Shown piece after piece: positions 3,760 to 46,770 of a DNA stretch of 64,000 nucleotides. Below the pieces are notes generated by a model. The model was given only the letters and a program-made list of their open reading frames with translations, was not told where the DNA came from and made no database searches. The DNA lies in contig VCJN01001870.1 in the NCBI GenBank assembly GCA_006384855.1, positions 59,587 through 123,586 of the forward strand, in the 5' to 3' direction. A program made the position numbers and the translations under genes. The stretch is from Tetraselmis striata. Taxonomy: Eukaryota; Chlorophyta; Chlorodendrophyceae; Chlorodendrales; Chlorodendraceae. Every line of letters begins with the position of its first letter. Positions within the stretch are counted from its first letter, which is position 1.

Positions 3760-6380
3760 CCGACTGTAACCCGCTGAATTAGAGGAATTAAAGAAACATC
3801 TTAACAGCTTCTTAGAGAAGGGCTTTATCCGTGAGTCTTTCTCTCCCTTTGCCGCTCTTGTCATGTTCGCTCGAAAGGCAAACGGCGGCCTCCGCATGTG
3901 CATCGACTACCGTCAGCTTAACAAATACACCAAACGAATCGAGTTTCATGTACCCAACGCGGACATGCTACTCGATATGCTGCCTGGTGTTGCAGTTTAC
4001 TCTGCTCTCGACCTTGCTCTCGGATACCACCAACTTCGCATCAAAGACTGACGTACAGAAAACTTCGTTTAAATGCCAGTTCGGTCAGTTCGAGTTTCTA
4101 GTAATGCCCTTTGGCCTCACAAACGCCCCCTCTGCCTTCCAACGTTGGATGAACCATATTCTACAGCCTCACAAAAACACCTTTATCCTCGTTTACCTTG
4201 ACGACGTTTTATTAATTTTCAGCAACTCTCGCGACGAACACCTCAACCATCTTGACATCACACTCGGCTTATTGGCGCAGAATGATATACGACTACGGTT
4301 ACCTAAGTGCTTTTTCGGTAAACACGAGCGCTCGAATACTTAGGGCACATGGCCAGCAAAGCTGGCGCCTATGTCCCTCAGATAATAGAGTCTCCGCCGT
4401 TAAGAACTGATCCCCGCCGCGGTCTGTTCAGCAGGTCCAGCAGTTCCTGGGCTTTTGCATTATTTACCGCCGATGCATACACAAACACTCTCACTTAGCT
4501 GCACCCCTTTACGACATTACTCGCAAGAAGAAAAATTTCGAGTGGGGCGTACCGGTACGTCCACACACTGCGTTTAATGCACTGAAACACGCGCTCTATT
4601 CTACCCATGTACTAGTGAGTCCTAAGACCGGTCCTGACGCGGAATTCGTCATTCCCCTACCTCTTTGGGTTGAGCGGAGGAAAAGGAGAGCCGCGTCCGA
4701 AATCGCCTGGAATACGAGAGAATCGATACCGGTTACAATACGGTTTTATCACGGATTTTTAGGCGTCCGTCCTCCGTCCTCCGTCCTCGTGTGCTGCGTC
4801 TTCGTGAATGAACCGTCATACGTTCGATCTGTGCTCGTTTGATTTCTAGGCACTCCTACCACAGTCCGTAAAAATCCTGCGACTAAGACGGATCTATCGT
4901 GAATTATACCGGAAACATCCTGCAAAAATCACGAATGTCCTCCGTCCGTCCTGTCACATACGCGCTTCGCGTATGAACCGTCATACGTTCGGTTTTCGCT
5001 CGTTTGATTTCACGGTACTGGTACGTGTACGGTAACATTCTGAATGGATGCGCGTGTATTCTAGCCCAGGCACGTCATATATTCGTCTAAAACGCCAAAA
5101 TAACGCGGTACCGCAGCGCGTTTTTACTGCTGAATCAGCAAGCGAGACTCGCCCTCTATATTTATACAGCGACTATATACACGGTGGTCCGAGGATATGC
5201 TGTAACATGATGGTGTAAAAAGGGGTCGCCGCGGTGCGGGGGCAGTCCGCCGACCCGGGTATATACGGTGGTGCGAGTATATAATTACACGAGCTAGCAG
5301 CAGAATATATTTGCTGTAAAATGATGCTGTAAAAAGGGGTCGCCGCGGTGCGGGGGCAGTCCGCCGACCCGGGGCCCGGCGTCCGTCGACGGACGGGCGA
5401 CGGTCGAACGACGGCCTCCGGCGTCCGGTGCCGGTACAGGCGGCGGGCGTGGCGATTCGCGCCGTGCCCGCCCCGTAGACCTGACGACCGGCCCGACCTG
5501 CGCGGCCTCGTGCGGGATGCGGGCCGCCTGTAGGCGGCTTGTACTGTATTGCTGATCTTGTAGTGCTGTTTTTTTTTTTTGGGGTAGTACAACTTTTAGC
5601 GGTGGGTTGGGTACCGGCCTTTTTGTAATGCACACCAGTAGTCAGCGGCCCGCTTTTACGCGGCTTGCAGATTTAATCTGTTTTACAAAATAATACGTCT
5701 CTTTTGAAAAATAAATTAGTGACAAATCTAACGCTAAAAGCATTATTACCCGGAAACAACAGTATTACAAGATCAACACGACAAGCCGGCTAAAAGCGGC
5801 CCGCATCCCGCACGGCCGCACCACGCTCAACCCAAGAGGTAGGGGCACCTCCACAGATCCCCGGCGCGAAGCGCCGCTTAGTATCCACGGATGCCAGTAA
5901 ATACGCTTTAGGCGCCGTTCTTTTACAAAAAAGATGATTCGAACAAATTACGCCCGTGCGCTTACGCGCTCACTTTGCCAAAGTACTACAGCCTGCTCAC
6001 ACAAATTATCCTACACACGACCAAGAACTATTGGGGGTTGTCTGCGCGTTTCAAGAATGGCGCTGCTATGTCGAAGGTGCTGCTAGCATTACAGTAACTA
6101 CTCATCATGCCACCTTACGTCATTTACCAACTCAAGATGCCCTCGGCCGCCGCCACGCCCTACGGCTCTCTGACATTTCACCTTATCTTGCCATCTCAAC
6201 CCGCACTCAAAAACCTATATATTCTGTCAATACTTTACCGCAAAGGTAGTCAAAATGAAGCTGGCGCCCTATCCCGCCGACCTAATCTTAAACATGACGT
6301 CCTCGCCGCTGAGAAAAGATTACTTGACTCCGAACTAGAGGATGTGCATGATTTTTTCTCGTCTATGTGTCACCTGCCTG
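3760..6380 (+). pseudogene. gypsy reverse transcriptase-RNase H, split by a 1.2-kb insertion
   Basis: RT blocks appear in order: LKKHLNSFLEKGFIRES, then VMFARKANGGLRMCIDYRQL and YSALDLALGYHQLRI. After a one-base frame change near 4050 come KTSFKCQFGQFEFLVMPFG, NAPSAFQRWMN and FILVYLDDVLLIF with the catalytic YLDD at about 4195. The connection domain runs to EFVI at 4653 and is then cut by an unrelated repeat (4654-5880). RNase H resumes in frame at 5881 with VSTDASKYALGAVL, followed by HDQELLGVV. The third acidic site reads THHATLR, where TDH is usual, so catalysis would be lost even without the insertion. Confidence 0.85.
4654..5880 (+). repeat. 1.2-kb dispersed repeat, copy A (inserted in gypsy RNase H)
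   Basis: This unit recurs inverted at 40044-41164 and direct at 44193-45251. It starts with CCCCTACCTC(T)TTGGGTTGAGCG, and the exact reverse complement of that end lies 36 bp inside the right end. The right end carries a GGCGC-GAA-GCGCC hairpin followed by GCTTA. Removing it restores the RNase H frame (EFVI|VSTDAS) with no target-site duplication. It contains no convincing gene; open frames in it follow from GC-rich composition. Copy A has one extra internal duplication of about 115 bp (around 5222-5340) that the other copies lack. Subterminal inverted repeat plus 3' hairpin without duplication resembles Helentron/Helitron2-type elements; a viral origin is the alternative. Confidence 0.85.
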
Positions 6381-38864: not shown

Positions 38865-39000
38865 ACTTCAGGCAGGGGGTATTCATGCCATTTTCGCTAG
38901 GTATTTAGCCTGAACTGAATTCAGCTGAAGTCGGGACTTCAGCCTGAAGTGGTCTGAACTGAAGCCCCTTCAGGGTAACCCTGGTCTGGGCCATGGTTGG
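38865..39000. repeat. right inverted end of the hAT-like element
   Basis: This is the reverse complement of the type seen at 36231-36440: TTCAGCTGAAGTC blocks, then TTCAGGGTAACCCTGGTCTGG and GGTTGGG. It is followed by GGCATAAG repeats that also occur at about 39100-39125, 40014 and, inverted, at 45279. Confidence 0.6.
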
Positions 39001-39302
39001 GCATAAGGCATAAGTTATTCCGGGAAACATATGTTATGACATAACATATTAAGTGGTTACGCTTATGAGGAAGTCCCATCGAAAATCGGCAGAAGTCCCA
39101 GGCATAAGTGCCCGGCATAAGTGCCGATAAAACCCGCAGTTGGCTCCCCCGCAGACTGCGTACTGCTCGTAGATACAGTACCTATGTACGAGGTGTTCAT
39201 TTACGAGGCGATGGTACGAAATTATAAGTAATGTACTCGTGATGCCGGCACACAGACGACCGTCGCAGAGGCAATCTTCCCGCCGGATCGCTATCCAGCA
39301 CC

Positions 39303-39932
39303 TTGCCAGCAGGCGCACAGGCGCCCGCCATGACTACACCAACACCCCCAACGGGCAAGGACGAGGCAACGTTGACGGGCTCCGCCATGTCTACATGCGC
39401 TGGAAGCTCCGTACTGTCGCGCCATACTGCAGTTCGCAGCGAGATTTGCTCCGGTACGGGCGATGGCGGCTCGTCACCCGCCGCTAGTGAGCAGACACCC
39501 GCCGCCGCACCACCCGTTGCGGCTGCTGCCACCACCACCGCCCCAACAGCCGACGATTATTCGAACTTCCCGGCTTTCGATAAGGCTGAACGCGGCGCTT
39601 CGGACACACGAACTGTTGAGGGCATTCGCCGCGGGCGCGCACGGATTGAGCTGGTGAAGAAGAATCGTAAGGCGTCCTGGGGATCGCACGCGACCCGCAG
39701 GAAGTCGCCTTACTGGGGCTTAATCGTCGACAACTCTTCCCGGGAGGCTGACGACTGCGAGGTTGTGGATGGCTCGTCCGCTGGAGAGGCAATATGCTGT
39801 ATTTTGTGTTTCGGCTCGAAAACCAACCAGATGCACCCGAAGTTTCCGAGAGAGGGGCCCTTCTGTGCGACTGTGGAGGAGCTGAACGCCAAGACGTGGG
39901 CTGAGCCGATGGCTGAGCTGGCCCTATCGTAA
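39303..39932 (+). CDS. unrecognised protein with CxxC motif, possibly transposon N-terminal domain
   Basis: A 209-codon open frame starts with a Thr/Pro/Ala-rich segment (TPPTGKDEATLTGSAM). It continues with a basic stretch (IRRGRARIELVKKNRKASWG) and a folded-looking part with EAICCILCFGSKTNQMHPKF and ELNAKTWAEPM. The CC-x-x-C pair and following His recall BED-type zinc fingers at the start of hAT transposases. The frame ends 110 bp before the inverted repeat that borders the viral insert, so the rest of a transposase may have been displaced. Identification is weak. Confidence 0.4.
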   Translation: MPAGAQAPAMTTPTPPTGKDEATLTGSAMSTCAGSSVLSRHTAVRSEICSGTGDGGSSPAASEQTPAAAPPVAAAATTTAPTADDYSNFPAFDKAERGASDTRTVEGIRRGRARIELVKKNRKASWGSHATRRKSPYWGLIVDNSSREADDCEVVDGSSAGEAICCILCFGSKTNQMHPKFPREGPFCATVEELNAKTWAEPMAELALS

Positions 39933-40043
39933 CGGTTCCAAGCTGTTCCCCAAGTACGAGCTGACATACAAAGGTCGCGGTGGCGGTGTATTTCGGCCAC
40001 TTCCTCACTTCTTATGCCATAAATTATGGCATAATTATGTTAC

Positions 40044-41164
40044 TAAGCGGCGCTTCGCGCCGAGGATTTGTGGAGGTGCCCCTACCTCTTGGGTTGAGCG
40101 TGGTGCGGCCGTGCGGGATGCGGGCCGCTTTTAGCCGGCTTGCAGTGTTGATCTTGTAATACTGTTGTTTCCGGGTAATAATGCTTTTAGCGTTAGATTT
40201 GTCAGTAATTTATTTTTCAAAAGAGACGTATTATTTTGTAAAACAGATTAAATCTGCAAGCCGCGTAAAAGCGGGCCGCTGACTACTGGTGTGCATTACA
40301 AAAAGGCCGATACCCAACCCACCGCTAAAAGTTGTACTACCCCCCCCAAAAAAAAAACAGCACTACAAGATCAGCAATACAGTACAAGCCGCCCACAGGC
40401 GGCCCGCATCCCGCACGAGGCCGCGCAGGTCGGGCCGGTCGTCAGGTCTACGGGGCGGGCACGGCGCGAATCGCCACGCCCGCCGCCTGTACCGGCACCG
40501 GACGCCGGACGCCGTCGTTCGACCGTCGCCCGTCCGTCGACGGACGCCGGGCCCCGGGTCGGCGGACTGCCCCCGCACCGCGGCGACCCCTTTTTACACC
40601 ATCATGTTACAGCATATCCTCGGACCACCGTGTATATAGTCGCTGTATAAATATAGAGGGCGAGTCTCGCTTGCTGATTCAGCAGTAAAAACGCGCTGCG
40701 GTACCGCGTTATTTTGGCGTTTTAGACGAATATATGACGTGCCTGGGCTAGAATACACGCGCATCCATTCAGAATGTTACCGTACATGTACCAGTACCGT
40801 GAAATCAAACGAGCGAAAACCGAACGTATGACGGTTCATACGCGAAGCGCGTATGTGACAGGACGGACGGAGGACATTCGTGATTTTTGCAGTATGTTTC
40901 CGGTATAATTCACGATAGACCCATCTTAGTCGCAGGATTTTTACGGACTGTGGTAGGAGTGCCTAGAAATCAAACGAGCACAGATCGAACGTATGACGGT
41001 TCATTCACGAAGACGCAGCACACGAGGACGGAGGACGGAGGACGGAGGACGGACGCCTAAAAATCCGTGATAAAACCGTATTGTAAGCGGTATCGATTCT
41101 CTCGTATTCCAGGCGATTTCGTACGCGGCTCTCCTTTTCCTCCGCTCAACCCAAGAGGTAGGGG
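40044..41164 (-). repeat. 1.1-kb dispersed repeat, copy B (inverted, left flank of viral insert)
   Basis: This is the reverse complement of copy A. It begins TAAGCGGCGCTTCGCGCC (3' hairpin end) and finishes CGCTCAACCCAAGAGGTAGGGG (5' end). It lacks the 115-bp internal duplication of copy A and is otherwise nearly identical. With copy C it forms long inverted repeats around 41165-44192. Internal landmarks are CGAACGTATGACGGTTCAT (twice) and the TCC(GTCCTCC)n tract. Confidence 0.9.
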
Positions 41165-41399
41165 AACTCTTTCTCAGATAATTATGGGACACCCCCAGCC
41201 GCTCCGTATCTTGTAGGCGCGCGCTCGCTTGCGGCGCCGCGAGCGAGCGAGCGTTTTGGACGCGGGGAATAAGACGCGGGCGTAAAGGGACAGCACGCGG
41301 CAGTCACTGCCAATCTCGCCGCGCGTACTTTCCCAGAATGAACGCGTTCTAGAGCGCGGCGACCGCGAGACCTCCAGGCGTCGCCGGAGCGCTGTCTTC

Positions 41400-41778
41400 T
41401 CCAAGGCATCGTCGTCGGTCCAACATCGTGGCGCGCCAGAAAAAGGTGATCAGGAAAAACATGTCGGGCGGCGCCGGCCAGGAGGTGGACCCCAGAATGG
41501 TTTTCATCATGGACGACTGCCTGTTCGACGACCGGTGGGTGCGCGACGTCAACATCCGCTCCATCTTCATGAACGGCAGGCACATGAAGATCATGTTCAT
41601 CTTCACCATGCAGTACCCGCTCGGCGTGCCCCCGGTGCTCCGCGCCAACATCGACTACGTCTTCATCCTGCGCGAGCATATCGTCAGCAACCGCAACCGC
41701 ATCTACGACAACTACTGCGGCATGCTGCCCAGCTTCGACATCTTCTGCACGGTGCTGGACAACACGACGGAGAACAAA
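41400..41778 (+). pseudogene. A32-like viral DNA-packaging ATPase, C-terminal two thirds
   Basis: A32/FtsK-HerA-type ATPases pump viral DNA into capsids. The frame gives IVARQKKVIRKN, a Walker B block VFIMDDCLFDD with the catalytic acidic pair, and IRSIFMNGRHMKIMFIFTMQ. After it come YPLGVPPVLRANIDYVFILR and YCGMLPSFDIFCTVLDNTTE, all hallmarks of the family in Mimiviridae and phycodnaviruses. The Walker A half (about 90 residues) is missing on the left and the reading loses homology after NTTEN at about 41778, where opposite-strand Hint sequence begins. It could not hydrolyse ATP. A host gene is excluded by the family signature. Confidence 0.85.
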
Positions 41779-41786
41779 GCGGGCAC

Positions 41787-41993
41787 GTGGAAGACGTGGT
41801 CCTCGGTGCACCGGACGGAGGTGCCGTCGCTGAGCTGCACCTCGAGGAACTGGACCGGGCGGTCGAGTCTCTGCACGTCGACGAGGGCGAACGCGTCCCC
41901 GTCCCAGAGCTCGACGGCTCGGCGGCCGGCCAGGCGCTTGACGGGCGTGGGCCCGCTCCGGGTGATGACGCGCTGCGTCCCCGCGACGGCCAT
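41787..41993 (-). pseudogene. intein-like Hint domain, N-terminal part
   Basis: On the minus strand from ATG 41993 the frame reads MAVAGTQRVITRSG, VKRLAGRRAVELWDGDAF and FLEVQLSDGTSVRCTEDHVF. The GT-x-V-x-x-x-x-G start (block A) and T-x-x-H (block B) are those of self-splicing inteins, closest in style to those in viral and cellular ribonucleotide reductases. Position 1, normally Cys or Ser, is Met here, the homing-endonuclease and C-terminal splicing blocks are absent, and no extein is recognisable, so splicing is impossible. The 3' edge coincides with the broken end of the ATPase fragment on the other strand. Confidence 0.6.
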
Positions 41994-42084
41994 GTTTGCA
42001 CATATACTCCCCAAAATAATGTCAGGTTGGGGGTAGCCACCGTGATGATGCAGTGAGGTTTCCGCTCTCGACCATGAAACGAGG

Positions 42085-42123
42085 GTTTATCACGGATTTT
42101 TAGGCGGTCCACCTCCGTCCTCG
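42085..42123 (+). promoter_or_regulatory. motif shared with flanking repeats, between viral genes
   Basis: TTTATCACGGATTTTTAGGCG followed by a degenerate CCTCCGTCCTCG tract matches the same block inside copies A (about 4746), B (inverted, about 41055) and C (about 44203). It lies just upstream of the RPB10 fragment. It may be a viral intergenic element, such as a promoter or transcript-end signal. Confidence 0.7.
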
Positions 42124-42139
42124 TTCCAGGCCGAACCAT

Positions 42140-42285
42140 TCCATCGGTTCCATTCCGATCCTCGCAGCCCTCGCCGACCAGCGGGGGCGGCGTCGCGCCG
42201 GCAGGCCATGGACGAGCTGGGCCTGGTCCGCTACTGCTGCCGCCGCCACTTTTTGTCGCAGGTGGACCTGATAGAGCGCATCTAG
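42140..42285 (+). pseudogene. RPB10-like RNA polymerase subunit, C-terminal part
   Basis: RPB10 is a small zinc-binding subunit shared by eukaryotic RNA polymerases and encoded by several giant viruses. The frame SRRQAMDELGLVRYCCRRHF, then LSQVDLIERI and TAG (42283-42285), is the typical second half with the RYCCRR zinc ligands. The N-terminal CFTCG zinc pair is not seen upstream, where the sequence is low-complexity, so the gene is truncated. It is intronless and differs from host codon context only by being slightly richer in Arg. The small size makes homology rest on about 30 residues, but the CCRR signature is distinctive. Confidence 0.75.
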
Positions 42286-42328
42286 CCAGCCAGTCCTTGA
42301 TCGCGGTCCGAAGTCTCGTCGTCGGAAG

Positions 42329-42564
42329 ATGGACGTCGCGAAGGTGGTTCTGACCCACCCCCTCGCGCGCCTCCCGGATCGGGCGGGCGGGCGGGCGGCG
42401 GGATACGATGCGAGGTTCCCCGGGGGCACTACATGCGCGTGGCCCCGCGGTCCGGACTGGCGGTCAACCACGGCGTTCAGACGGGGGCGGGGGTGGTCGA
42501 CGAGGACTACCGCGGAGAGATCAAGGTTCTCTCGTCGCGGTACCATCGTCGAATCATCGCTTAG
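42329..42564 (+). pseudogene. dUTPase, frameshifted and internally deleted
   Basis: dUTPase hydrolyses dUTP to keep uracil out of DNA and is common in large DNA viruses. The start reads [20 protein letters not shown] and motif I (RAAGYD). Near 42412 the frame changes and about 25 residues are missing before [20 protein letters not shown] (motif II, PRSGLA) and [16 protein letters not shown] (motif III). Motifs IV and V are lost; the frame ends RYHRRIIA and TAG at 42562-42564. The usual length is about 145 residues; here about 75 codons remain. Part of the active site is kept but trimer function is not expected. Confidence 0.8.
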
Positions 42565-42607
42565 CTAAGGTACCTTCCCGGATCGGACTCGCCGTGGTAC
42601 CTTAGCT
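42563..42607 (+). terminator. 12-bp perfect hairpin overlapping the dUTPase stop
   Basis: AGCTAAGGTACC (42563-42574) and its exact reverse complement (42596-42607) enclose 21 bases. The stem begins inside the stop codon. Mimivirus-type viruses end transcripts at such gene-terminal palindromes (the hairpin rule), so a viral 3'-end signal is the likely role. Confidence 0.6.
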
Positions 42608-42940
42608 GGTGTACAGACGCGAGGTCGCGGACGGCTACGCGATCACCAAGCGCTTCGAGTGCCCCCACTGGAACGACCTGGTGCGCCTGCCTTCCCCGCC
42701 GGGGGGGTGGTCCTCCTACGGCGGGATGGACTGTCACCACGTCCAAGACGTCCCCAACCTGGGAAAATTCAAAAGGACCGCGCTCACCATGCGGTCGTCC
42801 TTCAAGATGCCGTGATGGGTGGCCAGCAAGCTGGAGACCGTGGTCGACGAGTGGCCGCTCAGCCTGACCCTCGAGTGGGTCCAGGACCTGATGCCCAGGG
42901 CGCGCCGCCCCGGCCTCCGCCGCAGGGCCGCCGAGGCGCC
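42608..42940 (+). pseudogene. unrecognised viral frame
   Basis: The forward frame reads REVADGYAITKRFECPHWND, GWSSYGGMDCHHVQDVPNLG and, after a TGA at about 42814, WVASKLETVVDEWPLSLTLE. Composition is protein-like and it sits in line with the viral genes, but no family was recognised. The reverse frame across it is also open and cannot be excluded. Confidence 0.3.
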
Positions 42941-42984
42941 GTGGTAGGATCATCGGGTCCGTCGGCGGCACTCTCGCTCTCGAC

Positions 42985-43447
42985 CATGAGCTCCGACGAC
43001 CCCGCCGCCCCCGCCGCCGCCGCAGCCGCCCCCCTGGGGATGTCTAGCCTCCAGGTGCGCATCCTGTTTTTCATGGGGCTGAGCCTCCTGAGCAACTTCA
43101 GCGGGGAGCTGCTCCCGTGCGACATCCAGAAGGTGTTCGACACCAACATGTACGCCAAGCACCTGCTCGGCGCGATGCTGATGCTCTTCTTCAACAGGAT
43201 GACGAGGGCGGCGACGATGACGAGGGCGATGGCGACGAGGACGGCGAGGACGAGGGCGATGGCGAGGACGAGGCGGAAGAAGACGAGGAACGGGTTATCG
43301 ACCCGGATCGGTCCTGGCGCAGCCTGTCCAGCGCCGCGCGGCGGTCGTTCGGGGTCAAGAGGGCCTCCGCCGCGCGACACGGCGGCGCGGAGGTGGCGCG
43401 GCGGCGGTTGGGCTGGACGAACGCCCCCGGCGCCCGCCTGCTTCTGA
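42985..43447 (+). pseudogene. viral membrane protein 1 with acidic repeat
   Basis: From the ATG at 42986 the frame encodes an Ala-rich start, a hydrophobic segment (VRILFFMGLSLLSNF), then LLPCDIQKVFDTNMYAKHLL and GAMLMLFF. The CDIQK..NMY-KHLLG block resembles a conserved multi-pass membrane protein of mimivirus-like viruses. At about 43195 the reading should switch to a frame with an Asp/Glu/Gly-rich repeat (DEGDGDEDGEDEGDGEDEAE) and SWRSLSSAARRSF; the original frame becomes Arg/Thr-rich and stops at 43447. A slippage within the GACGAGG repeats explains the shift. Confidence 0.45.
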
Positions 43448-43945
43448 TCGCTGTGCTTCTTCCTCGTGGCCGGCTACGAGGTGTGGCGCGCGGCCGACAC
43501 GTACGATTCGCTAAACACCCGGGAGTACTACCAGGCGCGCGGCATGTCTCTCGCCGTCGAGGGGATAGCCCGCGTCGCGATGCTGTGGTCGGCGGGATAT
43601 ATAGTCCGAAACGTCCCGGAGGGGGTCGCCTCGTCGTCCAACAGCGCCGCCGAGAGCGTCATGTGGGTCGTGATGCTGGTGGTGGGCACGGAGATTCTCG
43701 CCAAGACGTGTCTGCAGTGGGGGATCATCGCCAACGACACCACCCTGTCGAAAGATCAGCTGACGATGGCGACCGAAACGACGATGGCGCAGCAGAGGCT
43801 CTTCGTCTACCCGCTATACATGGGCACGGTCGCCTACTTCATGATTCGCTTCAGGTCGTGGTGGGCGACGGGCGCGCTCGCGCTCGCCAACGGAAATCGC
43901 ACGGGGGCGAGAGCGTCGGTTGCTACCCGGTGTCGTCCAGGGTGA
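43448..43945 (+). pseudogene. viral membrane protein 2, multi-pass
   Basis: In the same frame as the preceding protein, after one TGA, the sequence continues SLCFFLVAGYEVWRAAD, YQARGMSLAVEGIARVAMLW, SVMWVVMLVVGTEILAKTCL and LFVYPLYMGTVAYFMIRF. This gives three to four likely membrane segments. It may be the second half of the preceding protein, separated by a nonsense codon and the acidic repeat. I do not recognise its family. Bases 43946-44160 have further open frames in both directions without a recognisable product. Confidence 0.4.
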
Positions 43946-44192
43946 AGGCCTTGGTGTGCAGCGGGAGCGTCATCATGTACGCGTGCGACGCGCCGACGAT
44001 GAGCATCAACGTCCGGAACGCGCGGTCCGGCCGGGTTGTTTCCAAGCTGTACGGCCACTCGGGCGGCGTGACGTGGTACCGATCGACGGGTGCTTCTCGG
44101 ATCCGACCACCGCTTCGAAACGGTGCTTCGTGGAGACGGATAGCTGCGTGACTAGGCAACTATCAGATAGCTGGATAGACTAAACGAAACTT

Positions 44193-45251
44193 CAATACGG
44201 TTTTATCACGGATTTTTAGGCGTCCGTCCTCCGTCCTCCGTCCTCCGTCCTCCGTCCTCCGTCCTCCGTCCTCGTGTGCTGCGTCTTCGTGAATGAACCG
44301 TCATACGTTCGATCTGTGCTCGTTTGATTTCTAGGCACTCCTACCACAGTCCGTAAAAATCCTGCGACTAAGACGGATCTATCGTGAATTATACCGGAAA
44401 CATACTGCAAAAATCACGAATGTCCTCCGTCCGTCCTGTCACATACGCGCTTCGCGTATGAACCGTCATACGTTCGGTTTTCGCTCGTTTGATTTCACGG
44501 TACTGGTACGTGTACGGTAACATTCTGAATGGATGCGCGTGTATTCTAGCCCAGGCACGTCATATATTCGTCTAAAACGCCAAAATAACGCGGTACCGCA
44601 GCGCGTTTTTACTGCTGAATCAGCAAGCGAGACTCGCCCTCTATATTTATACAGCGACTATATACACGGTGGTCCGAGGATATGCTGTAACATGATGGTG
44701 TAAAAAGGGGTCGTCGCGGTGCGGGGGCAGTCCGCCGACCCGGGGCCCGGCGTCCGTCGACGGACGGGCGACGGTCGAACGACGGCGTCCGGCGTCCGGT
44801 GCCGGTACATGCGGCGGGCGTGGCGATTCGCGCCGTGCCCGCCCCGTAGACCTGACGACCGGCCCGACCTGCGCGGCCTCGTGCGGGATGCGGGCCGCCT
44901 GTAGGCGGCTTGTACTGTATTGCTGATCTTGTAGTGCTGTTTTTTTTTTTTTTTTGGTAGTACAACTTTTGGGTGGGCTGGGTATCGGCCTTTTTGTAAT
45001 GCACACCAGTGGTCAGCGGCCCGCTTTTACGCGGCTTGCAGATTTAATCTGTTTTACAAAATAATACGTCTCTTTTGAAAAATAAATTACTGACAAATCT
45101 AACGCTAAAAGCATTATTACCCGGAAACAACAGTATTACAAGATCAACACTGCAAGCCGGCTAAAAGCGGCCCGCATCCCGCACGGCCGCACCACGCTCA
45201 ACCCAAGAGGTAGGGGCACCTCCACAAATCCCCGGCGCGAAGCGCCGCTTA
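44193..45251 (+). repeat. 1.06-kb dispersed repeat, copy C (right flank of viral insert)
   Basis: It is direct with copy A and inverted to copy B. It lacks the first 80 bp or so of the unit (starting at CAATACGGTTTTATCACGG) and ends with the GGCGCGAAGCGCC hairpin and GCTTA. The TCC(GTCCTCC)n tract is longer here than in A or B. The right flank (TATAAGTACTTATGACAT) does not match the left flank of copy B, so no target duplication brackets the composite. Confidence 0.9.
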
Positions 45252-45307
45252 TATAAGTACTTATGACATACGCGACCCAGGGGTCACTTATGCCCAATCC
45301 TGGTCTG

Positions 45308-46770
45308 GACCACGCGGACTTCGCTCTACAAGGCACACCATCGAGGATCAAGCTGCTAGCGCCTAGGCGCCTAGCGGGCTTGCATGTCAATCTAGCAGTA
45401 CATTAGACCTTATTATGGACCATTCGGGGAACATGATTACATGAGCTAGACGCAACATTCAAGAAATCCACACAGAAATCCAGAAGGAAATCCAGAAGGA
45501 AATCCAGGTACGGGCCAACAGAGGCAGGAACCGCCATGGTAGCCTCCGACCAGGCATCGCCACCAGCCAGCCGCCGCTCCACGCAGTAGGGACGCTCTCC
45601 CCAGCACACAATCCCGGGCCACTCCAATAGCGGCACTAGGCCGAATGTAATGTGAAGGCGCCGACAGGAAAGGAGCTTCGAAGTTGAGGTCTCGCAGCAA
45701 GGAGCGGAAGTGGGGGGGGTCCAACCCAGAACGGGGCGCCACGGGCGTGCAACAGACGCAGGCCACCCAACGCCAGATGCGCCGCCAGCTCGGTCGCGTC
45801 CTTTTCCGCCAAACGTAGAACGCCTTCCCCAGCACAACATCCCGGGCCACTCCAATAGCGGCACTAGGCCGAATGTAATGTGGAGGCGCCGACAGGACAG
45901 GAAGGGAGAAAGTGCTCAACGAGTAGGGAATGCAGAGCCGACCGGGCCAGCAACGACGTATGACGCCGGTGTCCAGCGCGCGTTGTTCCGCCCAGCGCCA
46001 GATCCGCCGCCAGCTCGGTCGCGTCCCCTTCCGCCAAACGTAGAACTCCCTTCCCAGCACAACATCCCGGGCCACTCCAATAGCGGCACTAGGCCGAATG
46101 TAATGTGGAGGCGCCGACAGGACAGGAAGGGAGAGGGTGCTCAAAGAACAGCGAACATGGACTTGACCGGACAAGCAACGACGTAAGACGCCGGTGTCCA
46201 GCGCACGTTGTTCCGCCCAGCGCCAGATCCGCCGCCAGCTCGGTCGCGTCCCCTTCCGCCGAACGTAGAACTCCCTTCCCAGCACAACATCCCGGGCCAC
46301 TCCAATAGCGGCACTAGGCCGAATGTAATGTGGAGGCACCGACAGGACAGGAAGGGAGAGGGTGCTCAAAGAACAGCGAACATGGACTTGACCGGACCAG
46401 CAACGACGTAAGACGCCGGTGTCCAGCTCACACTGCTCCTCCGCGGCAGTGGCAGCACGGGCGGGGCCAAGGCAACCAAGGCGCCACCCGTGCACGATCC
46501 CCGCCCCCATCCCCAGCCGGGGGTGGAGGCGGAGGAAGGGCCCGCGATTCCGAGGGCCGAGGACGGTCGTCGGGCCCGCCCAGGCGGCGAAGGTTGGGTG
46601 GCTAAAAATTTCTGAACATCCCCTGGTTGGACGGTCCCAGAGTATTTCCATGCCCGGGTACAGGGTAGCCGTGCATCGCCCATCGTCCGGGCCGGTACTT
46701 TGATTCTGGGTACCGTACAGCCCTTGTCCCTTGATATGACGGGCGGTGTAGTGACTGACTGACTGTTATT
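45308..46770 (+). repeat. dispersed repeat R1, copy split by an insertion
   Basis: 45308-45434 and 46615-46770 together equal the intact copy at 8998-9246. The two halves repeat GAACAT (45429-45434 and 46615-46620), a 6-bp target duplication created by the inserted 1180 bp. Confidence 0.8.
45435..46614 (-). mobile_element. non-autonomous insertion with a 225-bp tandem array
   Basis: Inside a GAACAT target duplication lie four copies of a unit of 225-228 bp (landmark CCGAATGTAATGTG at 45641, 45869, 46094 and 46319). Because the period is a multiple of three, long frames stay open on both strands. The minus-strand one is about 400 codons with a 75-residue repeat (LDTGVLRRC, HYIRPSAAIGVARDVVLG), and plus-strand frames of up to 158 codons also run through. 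The element has no inverted ends. On the minus strand it finishes CATGTAATC, containing TGTAA, the polyadenylation signal of many green algae, so it may be a retroposed transcript. Whether any protein is made is unknown. Confidence 0.6.

Follow-up and report, generated by a model that had tools for sequence, protein, structure and literature searches.

The locus at 40044-45251 of the window, the 64,000-nucleotide stretch of Tetraselmis striata contig VCJN01001870.1 that was analysed, looks like neither a virus nor a new kind of mobile element. With a probability of about one half, it is a DNA repair scar in which viral DNA serves as filler between two head-to-head transposon insertions. This reading draws on the identity of the flanking repeats, on the host sequence that they interrupt, and on the mosaic composition of the DNA between them.

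The flanking repeats are rolling-circle transposons

The “1.1-kb inverted repeats” of the preliminary description are copies of a high-copy rolling-circle transposon of the Helitron2/Helentron type. The window contains three of them:

40044-41166, minus strand: copy B, a complete non-autonomous Helitron2/Helentron-type element with exact ends, 96-97% identical to full-length genomic copies; its 3' end points outward (left) and its 5' end inward
44190-45251, plus strand: copy C, the same element as B, 98.3% identical to it over the common part, the first ~80 bp being absent (5' end lost); its 3' end points outward (right)
~4650-5880, plus strand (direction of C): copy A, a third and more distant copy in the window, which contains an internal duplication spaced 114 bp

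The near-identity of the two inverted copies was thus correctly described, and the third copy adds to it. The repeat is not confined to this cluster: 870 transposon 5' ends were counted genome-wide, against 0 in a control with the reversed pattern. Viral terminal repeats are ruled out by this genome-wide distribution. Pairwise identities are 98.27% for B-C, 98.45% for C-A and 98.21% for B-A, and B and C are separate copies, not each other's sisters. On both grounds, the defective palindrome of viral replication that the preliminary description also suggested, bounded by terminal inverted repeats, is not supported. A Pack-type transposon bounded by long terminal inverted repeats was rejected, as the ends are of the rolling-circle type and the arms are separate copies. 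B and C have the minority base in common at four sites, two of them rare (found in 1/11 and 0/11 other copies), a sequence pattern that hints weakly at common descent; apart from these two rare bases, an origin of the pair by inverted duplication of one copy is not supported.

The sub-terminal inverted repeats are 22 nt long and asymmetrically placed, at 1-2 nt from the 5' end but ~40 nt inside the 3' end. In the copies read, the hairpin GGCGCGAAGCGCC is located a few nucleotides upstream of the 3' end. Head-to-tail arrays are present, in which the tandem joint runs from a 3' end directly into a 5' end. A T adjoins both ends in most of the copies read, which might reflect insertion between two T residues with no duplication of the target; the two 5' ends at L083 deviate. 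The terminus of copy C is CTTA-T, without the G.

A partner that shares the transposon ends and has Rep-type and helicase-type domains is represented by two stretches. In L082, a 2,434-residue Rep-like ORF lies upstream of the same 3' end as that of the transposon, its own 5' end being beyond the stretch; its Pfam scores are 26.3 bits for Helitron_like_N (below the cut-off), 21.8 for AAA_19 (below 25.1) and 27.8 for DUF6570 (above 24.3). L081 harbors broken ORFs that score 29.5 bits for Helitron_like_N, the cut-off being 28.9, and they are bounded by the same 5' end and the same 3' end as the transposon. Since Pfam at E 0.01 detects no endonuclease domain, the strict Helentron trait, in the 2,434-residue ORF, the label is limited to “Helitron2/Helentron-type”.

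The composite sits inside a single host-repeat copy

Outside B and C lie the two parts of a host repeat of ~1.2 kb:

38991-40042: left part of the host repeat, 96% identical to copies L063-L066
45261-45305: right part of the same repeat, matched at 92-96% identity by three of the four copies that were read

The composite running from B to C therefore interrupts a single copy of this repeat, of which ~85 bp are missing, and the host-chromosome setting initially proposed is supported. Both parts occur in three of the four copies read, 90-98 bp apart (blastn); in the fourth, the sequence between the two parts was recognized by eye, along with a short stretch of the right one. A search with the joined flanks returned 1,476 candidate places, of which 40 were scored; among the matches listed, 33 of the other 38 places with a left part also have a right-part match on the same contig. 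Both outer joints coincide with transposon 3' ends.

The insert is a mosaic of gene fragments

The insert between B and C is 3,020 bp long, of which ~1.8 kb could be assigned; the other 1,208 bp could be traced to no source. It is a mosaic that includes virus-type pieces, the relatives of which lie far apart. The assigned part comprises fragments of five genes whose relatives are ORFs of two contigs bearing giant-virus DNA (A32 ATPase, the end of RPB10 and three unnamed ones), together with the membrane part of an M48 peptidase, a dUTPase piece, an acidic low-complexity stretch and a 40-bp transposon scrap:

41170-41417: unassigned stretch adjoining the 5' end of B, containing an inverted repeat of 36 bp (41218-41253, self-inverted match); no source found
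41418-41775, plus strand: internal fragment of a packaging ATPase gene of the giant-virus A32 type; DNA 91% identical to C613 and 88% to C2605
41775-41994, minus strand: piece of an unnamed giant-virus-contig ORF; DNA 73% to C2605, 55% over 73 aa; no Pfam family
42083-42122, plus strand: 40-bp transposon scrap oriented like C; it matches positions 44199-44238 of C, and copies in L030, at 90%
42166-42282, plus strand: C-terminal piece of RPB10; 82% over 39 aa to a C2605 ORF with PF01194, with a match on C1947 too
42403-42531, plus strand: dUTPase piece, which may derive from a virus or from the host; matches C1899/C810 at 63% over 43 aa
42995-43204, plus strand: N-terminal piece of an unnamed membrane-like ORF; DNA 74% to C2605, 61% over 70 aa; no Pfam family
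43195-43307, plus strand: acidic low-complexity stretch, with repetitive matches on several contigs including C613
43454-43906, plus strand: N-terminal membrane region of an M48-peptidase-like gene; DNA 65% to C1590; an ORF with PF01435 matches at 46% over 127 aa
43900-44089, plus strand: piece of a large unnamed giant-virus-contig ORF; DNA 80% to C613, 74% over 58 aa; no Pfam family

Giant-virus-type pieces do lie between the repeats, as first described. The A32 piece is 89% identical over 119 residues to an intact A32 ORF on C613; no relative of the piece or of the intact A32 was confirmed among viral contigs, a set that may omit records near this genome. The C2605 ORF matched by the RPB10 piece exhibits PF01194 at 82 bits. 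The dUTPase identification holds (window 42301-42561, PF00692 at 43.4 bits, cut-off 22), while its source may be viral or host: its best match in the genome is on C1899 and C810, two near-copy contigs of 56-57% GC. The 41775-41994 piece is Hint-like by motif only, and the proposed intein-like domain finds no Pfam support in the window piece or in its longer relative. All seven assignable gene pieces are incomplete, in agreement with the truncation noted earlier. The mixture of strands is reduced to one antisense piece (41775-41994), the best-scoring frames of the other six being all on the plus strand. These pieces are broken genes, and no present function is proposed for them.

A 69-residue piece at 42606-42812 matched nothing but itself in the genome search, ten other ORFs of the window returned no Pfam family at E 0.01, and Rfam and tRNA scans of the window returned nothing. 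The motif GCTCTCGACCATGA, which occurs twice in the insert (42064 and 42976), was considered as a viral leader, which is not supported, its 10-base core being absent from the ten viral-type or related stretches scanned.

The order of the pieces is not that of their relatives on a viral contig. Relatives of four of them are located on C2605 at, in insert order, 166, 323, 244 and 419 kb; they are thus 77-253 kb apart and differently ordered. A simple relic of one endogenous virus is not supported by this arrangement, which is that of a related virus and not of the source itself. Similarity is lost abruptly at piece ends, and three pairs of neighbours overlap or meet within a few bases. There seem to be two giant endogenous virus regions in this genome, and the direct viral source of the insert is absent from the assembly as far as searched. 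A decayed A32 scrap of ~100 bp is found at C1531/C1695, the transposon being absent from the flanking 0.8-1.5 kb on either side; viral scraps thus arise away from the transposon too.

Origin of the locus

If the locus is a repair scar, two Helitron2/Helentron-type copies would have inserted independently, head to head, in one host-repeat copy. A break would have followed between them, caused by a Rep nick at the 5' end of B or by a hairpin formed by the inverted pair. Until the ends were joined, end joining or template-switching synthesis may have taken up small giant-virus DNA fragments that were in the nucleus, and transposon sequence next to the broken end of C would also have been picked up as scrap. 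The donor was probably a virus related to, yet distinct from, the two in this genome. The transposon scrap within the mosaic favors this history, together with the independence of B and C, the single interrupted host-repeat copy and the transposon 3' ends at both outer joints. Head-to-head pairs without filler, found at C764 and C1540 (spacers of ~138 and ~66 bp), speak for it and also against it, as they indicate that filler is not the usual outcome. The exact 5' end of B, rarely left by a random break, weighs against it, as do the 1,208 bp without source, the absence of the viral source from the assembly as searched, the minority-base sites of B and C, and the transposon-free A32 scrap.

The same mosaic replaces the 5' part of C and leaves its 3' end intact, and C or a longer form of it might instead have acquired the viral filler at another site while it was transposing, either at once or stepwise like maize Helitrons, before landing beside B. 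Filler DNA and stepwise capture are described for Helitrons in the available parts of PMC6544945 and PMC3288121. This is a real, if doubtful, possibility: the genome search with the whole insert matched only itself, so that no second copy of a captured unit was found, no 5' end in the direction of C lies ahead of the mosaic, and ~85 bp of the target are missing. The composite element with captured viral DNA of the preliminary description is the nearest of its readings, although a single mobile unit is unsupported; such an element would be marked by repeated occurrence of the complete unit or by a duplicated target site, and a loss of target was found instead. The exact 5' end of B, preceded by a T as if inserted into its present flank, would also fit a scrambled viral relic invaded later by transposons at both edges. 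This order of events is unlikely, as the other flank of B and the outer flank of C are one host-repeat copy and not viral DNA, and exact hits would be needed at both edges. Delivery of the composite by a virus that carried the transposon copies could account for the transposon scrap among viral pieces, and a giant virus is reported to carry DNA transposons (PMC4495683, in the part available); the transposon is, however, a genome-wide host family with no match in seven giant-virus stretches of ~3 kb each (L010, L011, L012, L015, L016, L018, L019), and we consider this route very improbable. Still less credit is given to an assembly or library chimera. The single-copy state of the insert would fit a chimera, but its outer flanks are two parts of one host-repeat copy in the right order and orientation, which argues against a chimera, as this would hardly restore them.

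Comparison with known systems

The non-autonomous elements of the Helitron2/Helentron group are known as HINE and DINE-1 (PMC4067079, PMC5148889). As described in the accessible parts of these papers, they have in common with the present transposon the sub-terminal inverted repeats near the 5' end and ~40 nt from the 3' end, the 3' hairpin, a T-rich target, tandem copies and a larger relative with a Rep-like ORF. B and C are ordinary members of this group, whereas the viral mosaic between them is unusual. Filler-DNA and stepwise capture at Helitrons likewise gather several short gene fragments at a rolling-circle transposon, as far as the consulted portions of PMC6544945 and PMC3288121 go; here, in contrast, most of the source DNA is that of giant viruses, and the pieces are enclosed by two inverted copies, not demonstrably inside one mobile copy. 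Viral pieces amid repeats of an algal chromosome are also described in Ectocarpus (PMC2373305, partial text), but those measure ~0.9-5.4 kb and are virus-ordered in region B, while those of the insert are 75-430 bp long and disordered. Giant endogenous viral elements, contiguous regions with many viral genes, involve the same kind of virus, whereas this locus holds gene fragments only, seven in 3 kb. No account of giant-virus pieces at Helitrons was found in the literature as covered by titles and the openings of abstracts, a coverage that mostly leaves subscription papers outside.

Biological significance

The locus conveys a warning: A32, RPB10 and dUTPase signatures within 3 kb are insufficient alone to call an endogenous virus. 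A role in antiviral memory, in which a transcript of B, mosaic and C would form a long hairpin RNA whose loop of giant-virus gene pieces feeds RNA silencing, with transposon-linked breaks as the capture step, is barely more than conjecture. If the locus is indeed a repair scar, giant-virus DNA would enter the algal nucleus as small fragments, and such fragments would be built into chromosomes at transposon-linked breaks in surviving cells. The alga would thereby gain viral DNA by a route unlike whole-genome integration.

Transposons at both ends of an insert with viral-type pieces

The inverted repeats that enclose the viral gene pieces, copies B and C, belong by sequence comparison to one family together with copy A. 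The window spans 59587-123586 of contig C1507, and the locus is laid out in it as follows.

About 4650-5880, + strand: transposon copy A
38991-40042: left part of a high-copy host repeat of ~1.2 kb
40044-41166, - strand: copy B
41170-44192: insert with giant-virus-type gene pieces
44190-45251, + strand: copy C, 5' end lost
45261-45305: right part of the host repeat

A pattern search of the whole assembly (G000, 224 Mb, 2,903 contigs) with the family 5' end, TTCCCCTACCTCTTGGGTTGAGCGGA, allowing two mismatches, yields 870 occurrences (466 + 404), and the reversed control pattern yields none. At the 3' end, the copies read possess an inverted repeat ~40 nt before the end, a GGCGCGAAGCGCC hairpin, GCTTAG (without its G in copy C) and a T. 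A T also precedes most 5' ends, the exceptions being both ends in L083, a stretch of contig C764. The 1.1-kb transposon occurs in head-to-tail arrays on C1052 (L006), C138 (L030), C2000, C1540 and C2354; in L006 the 3' end of one copy abuts the 5' end of the next without a gap.

These end features match those of HINE/Helentron and Helitron2 elements as set out in parts of PMC4067079 and PMC5148889. The Helitron_like_N profile finds 10 places in the genome, 7 above cut-off. On C187 (L082), a 2,434-residue open frame is followed by the family 3' end, the 5' end lying outside the stretch examined; on C1791 (L081), broken ORFs for the same protein lie between family 5' and 3' ends. The long ORF scores 26.3 bits with Helitron_like_N (cut-off 28.9), 21.8 with AAA_19 (cut-off 25.1) and 27.8 with DUF6570 (cut-off 24.3), and the L081 protein piece scores 29.5 with Helitron_like_N. 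Such scores are modest, and the case for a putative Rep-type relative rests on the shared ends. Pfam analysis reveals no endonuclease domain in this partner protein, and the name Helentron in the strict sense is therefore withheld.

In an alignment of 13 copies, B and C are 98.27% identical, against 98.45% for C-A, 98.21% for B-A and 97.95% for B-L002, which speaks against B and C as sister copies. B and C carry the same non-majority base at four sites, two of them rare elsewhere (1/11 and 0/11 of the other copies). On balance, B and C seem to have inserted separately, as members of a young family.

The insertion site

A query fusing 300 bp of the left flank to 301 bp of the right flank pointed to 1,476 candidate places; scoring covered 40 of these. 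The left flank stops exactly where the composite of B, insert and C begins. Among the matches listed, the right part is found on the same contig at 33 of the 38 left-part places outside the window. Four host-repeat copies (L063-L066) are 96% identical to window 38991-40042 (39003-40042 for L063). In three of these the right part lies 90-98 bp beyond the left (blastn), while in the fourth, L065, inspection by eye shows a short right part as well as the sequence in between. Measured as far as the position at which the window and the copies match once more, the composite lacks ~85 bp of host repeat relative to L063-L065, and less relative to L066. Both its outer ends are transposon 3' ends, inside one host-repeat copy.

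On C11, a transposon 5' end lies ~7 bp from the equivalent point of another host-repeat copy; this second case suggests that the AT-rich spot of the repeat may be a preferred target. Other head-to-head pairs occur on C764 (L083) and C1540 (L084), with spacers of ~138 and 66 bp, and neither harbors viral-type filler. By eye, the B 5' flank has no more than the 8-base ATAATTAT in common with the host repeat, so it could be a remnant of that repeat or unrelated to it. A short way to the right of the composite, window 45592-46437 holds a 225-bp tandem repeat in three full copies and a partial fourth.

A mosaic of gene pieces

The full-length insert has a single genome match, itself. Its pieces find separate relatives.

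Pieces of the insert and their relatives in the assembly
41418-41775: A32 (packaging ATPase) piece, 91% to C613, 88% to C2605
41781-41994: piece with a C2605 relative, 73%
RPB10 piece: 83% over 75 bp to C2605, 78% to C1947
dUTPase piece: 75% to C1899 and to its near-copy C810
43014-43196: piece with a C2605 relative, 74%
43195-43289: acidic low-complexity sequence, matches on several contigs
43454-43882: piece with a C1590 relative, 65%
43901-44089: piece with a C613 relative, 80%

Following the order of the insert, the relatives on C2605 sit at 166, 323, 244 and 419 kb. Similarity stops abruptly at piece ends, and three neighbour pairs touch within a few bases or slightly overlap (41775/41781, 43196/43195 and 43906/43900, the last as judged from protein matches). 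Matches cover 1,812 of 3,020 bp; the other 1,208 bp have none in the genome searches. Six of the seven gene pieces read in sense on the + strand (best-scoring frame), an excess that may be chance. A 14-base string precedes two ATG codons in the insert (window 42064 and 42976) and is absent from ten stretches scanned.

Pfam identifies RPB10, dUTPase and an M48 peptidase, either in the piece from the insert or in its longer relatives. The intact A32 protein scores 16.5 bits, below the cut-off of 22.8; among the matches listed, PF04665 is named on 8 of 120 A32 homologs, those 8 at 53-62% identity. The A32-type protein of C2605 is identical over 249 residues to a protein labelled eukprot:jgi/Tetstr1, which would stand for the green alga Tetraselmis striata.

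Viral sequence elsewhere in the genome

Two genome places match the late transcription factor VLTF3, on C613 and C2605, and the two intact A32 genes lie on these contigs too. These large contigs measure 536 and 653 kb (L010, L011, L012, L015, L016, L018, L077-L080). Their matched stretches have a GC content of 62-71%, their ends 43-57% in 1-kb steps, apart from a single step at 63%. They probably carry two large endogenous giant viruses with putative host flanks. Neither contig yielded a major capsid protein in searches with PF04451 and PF16903; PF04451 has no match anywhere in this genome or in any control genome, and PF16903 has one broken match, on C2306. Both viruses were rejected as direct source of the mosaic, whose pieces differ from them by 9-27% in DNA.

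PF04665 also marks 84 genome places above cut-off (e.g. L033-L052), with matches in 2 of 14 genomes in the profile control; many are open frames of ~240-275 residues, which by size would fit packaging ATPases of Polinton-like viruses.

A decayed A32 scrap of ~100 bp, 94% identical to the window piece, lies in host-like sequence on C1531 (L014) and C1695 (L013), two places that are near-copies. No copy of the transposon is found within the 0.8-1.5 kb examined on each side. Small viral scraps thus occur away from this locus and this transposon as well, and a capture driven strictly by the transposon becomes less likely.

Origin of the composite

Directly seen here are the element type, the outer 3' ends in one host-repeat copy, the losses and the mosaic. 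In the preferred account, two transposons would have inserted first, a break would have fallen between them, and its repair would have taken in viral DNA as filler. The first ~80 bp of C are lost, as is host sequence, and a 40-bp scrap in the mosaic (42083-42122, + strand) repeats, in the same direction, the transposon sequence beside this broken end, which fits templated repair. The exact 5' end of B speaks against a random break; a nick by the transposon's own putative enzyme would account for it. Since two fifths of the insert have no source found, confidence in repair with viral filler is slightly lowered.

Capture of filler DNA by Helitrons is described for host sequence in part of PMC6544945, and stepwise capture in maize Helitrons in part of PMC3288121. 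Among the titles and abstract openings of the literature searched, no report of giant-virus fragments at Helitron ends was found. The nearest case is Ectocarpus, with viral pieces amid repeats; those described in the relevant portion of PMC2373305 are longer than those of the window. We rate the locus as transposon-associated filler DNA, of a known type and with an unusual source.
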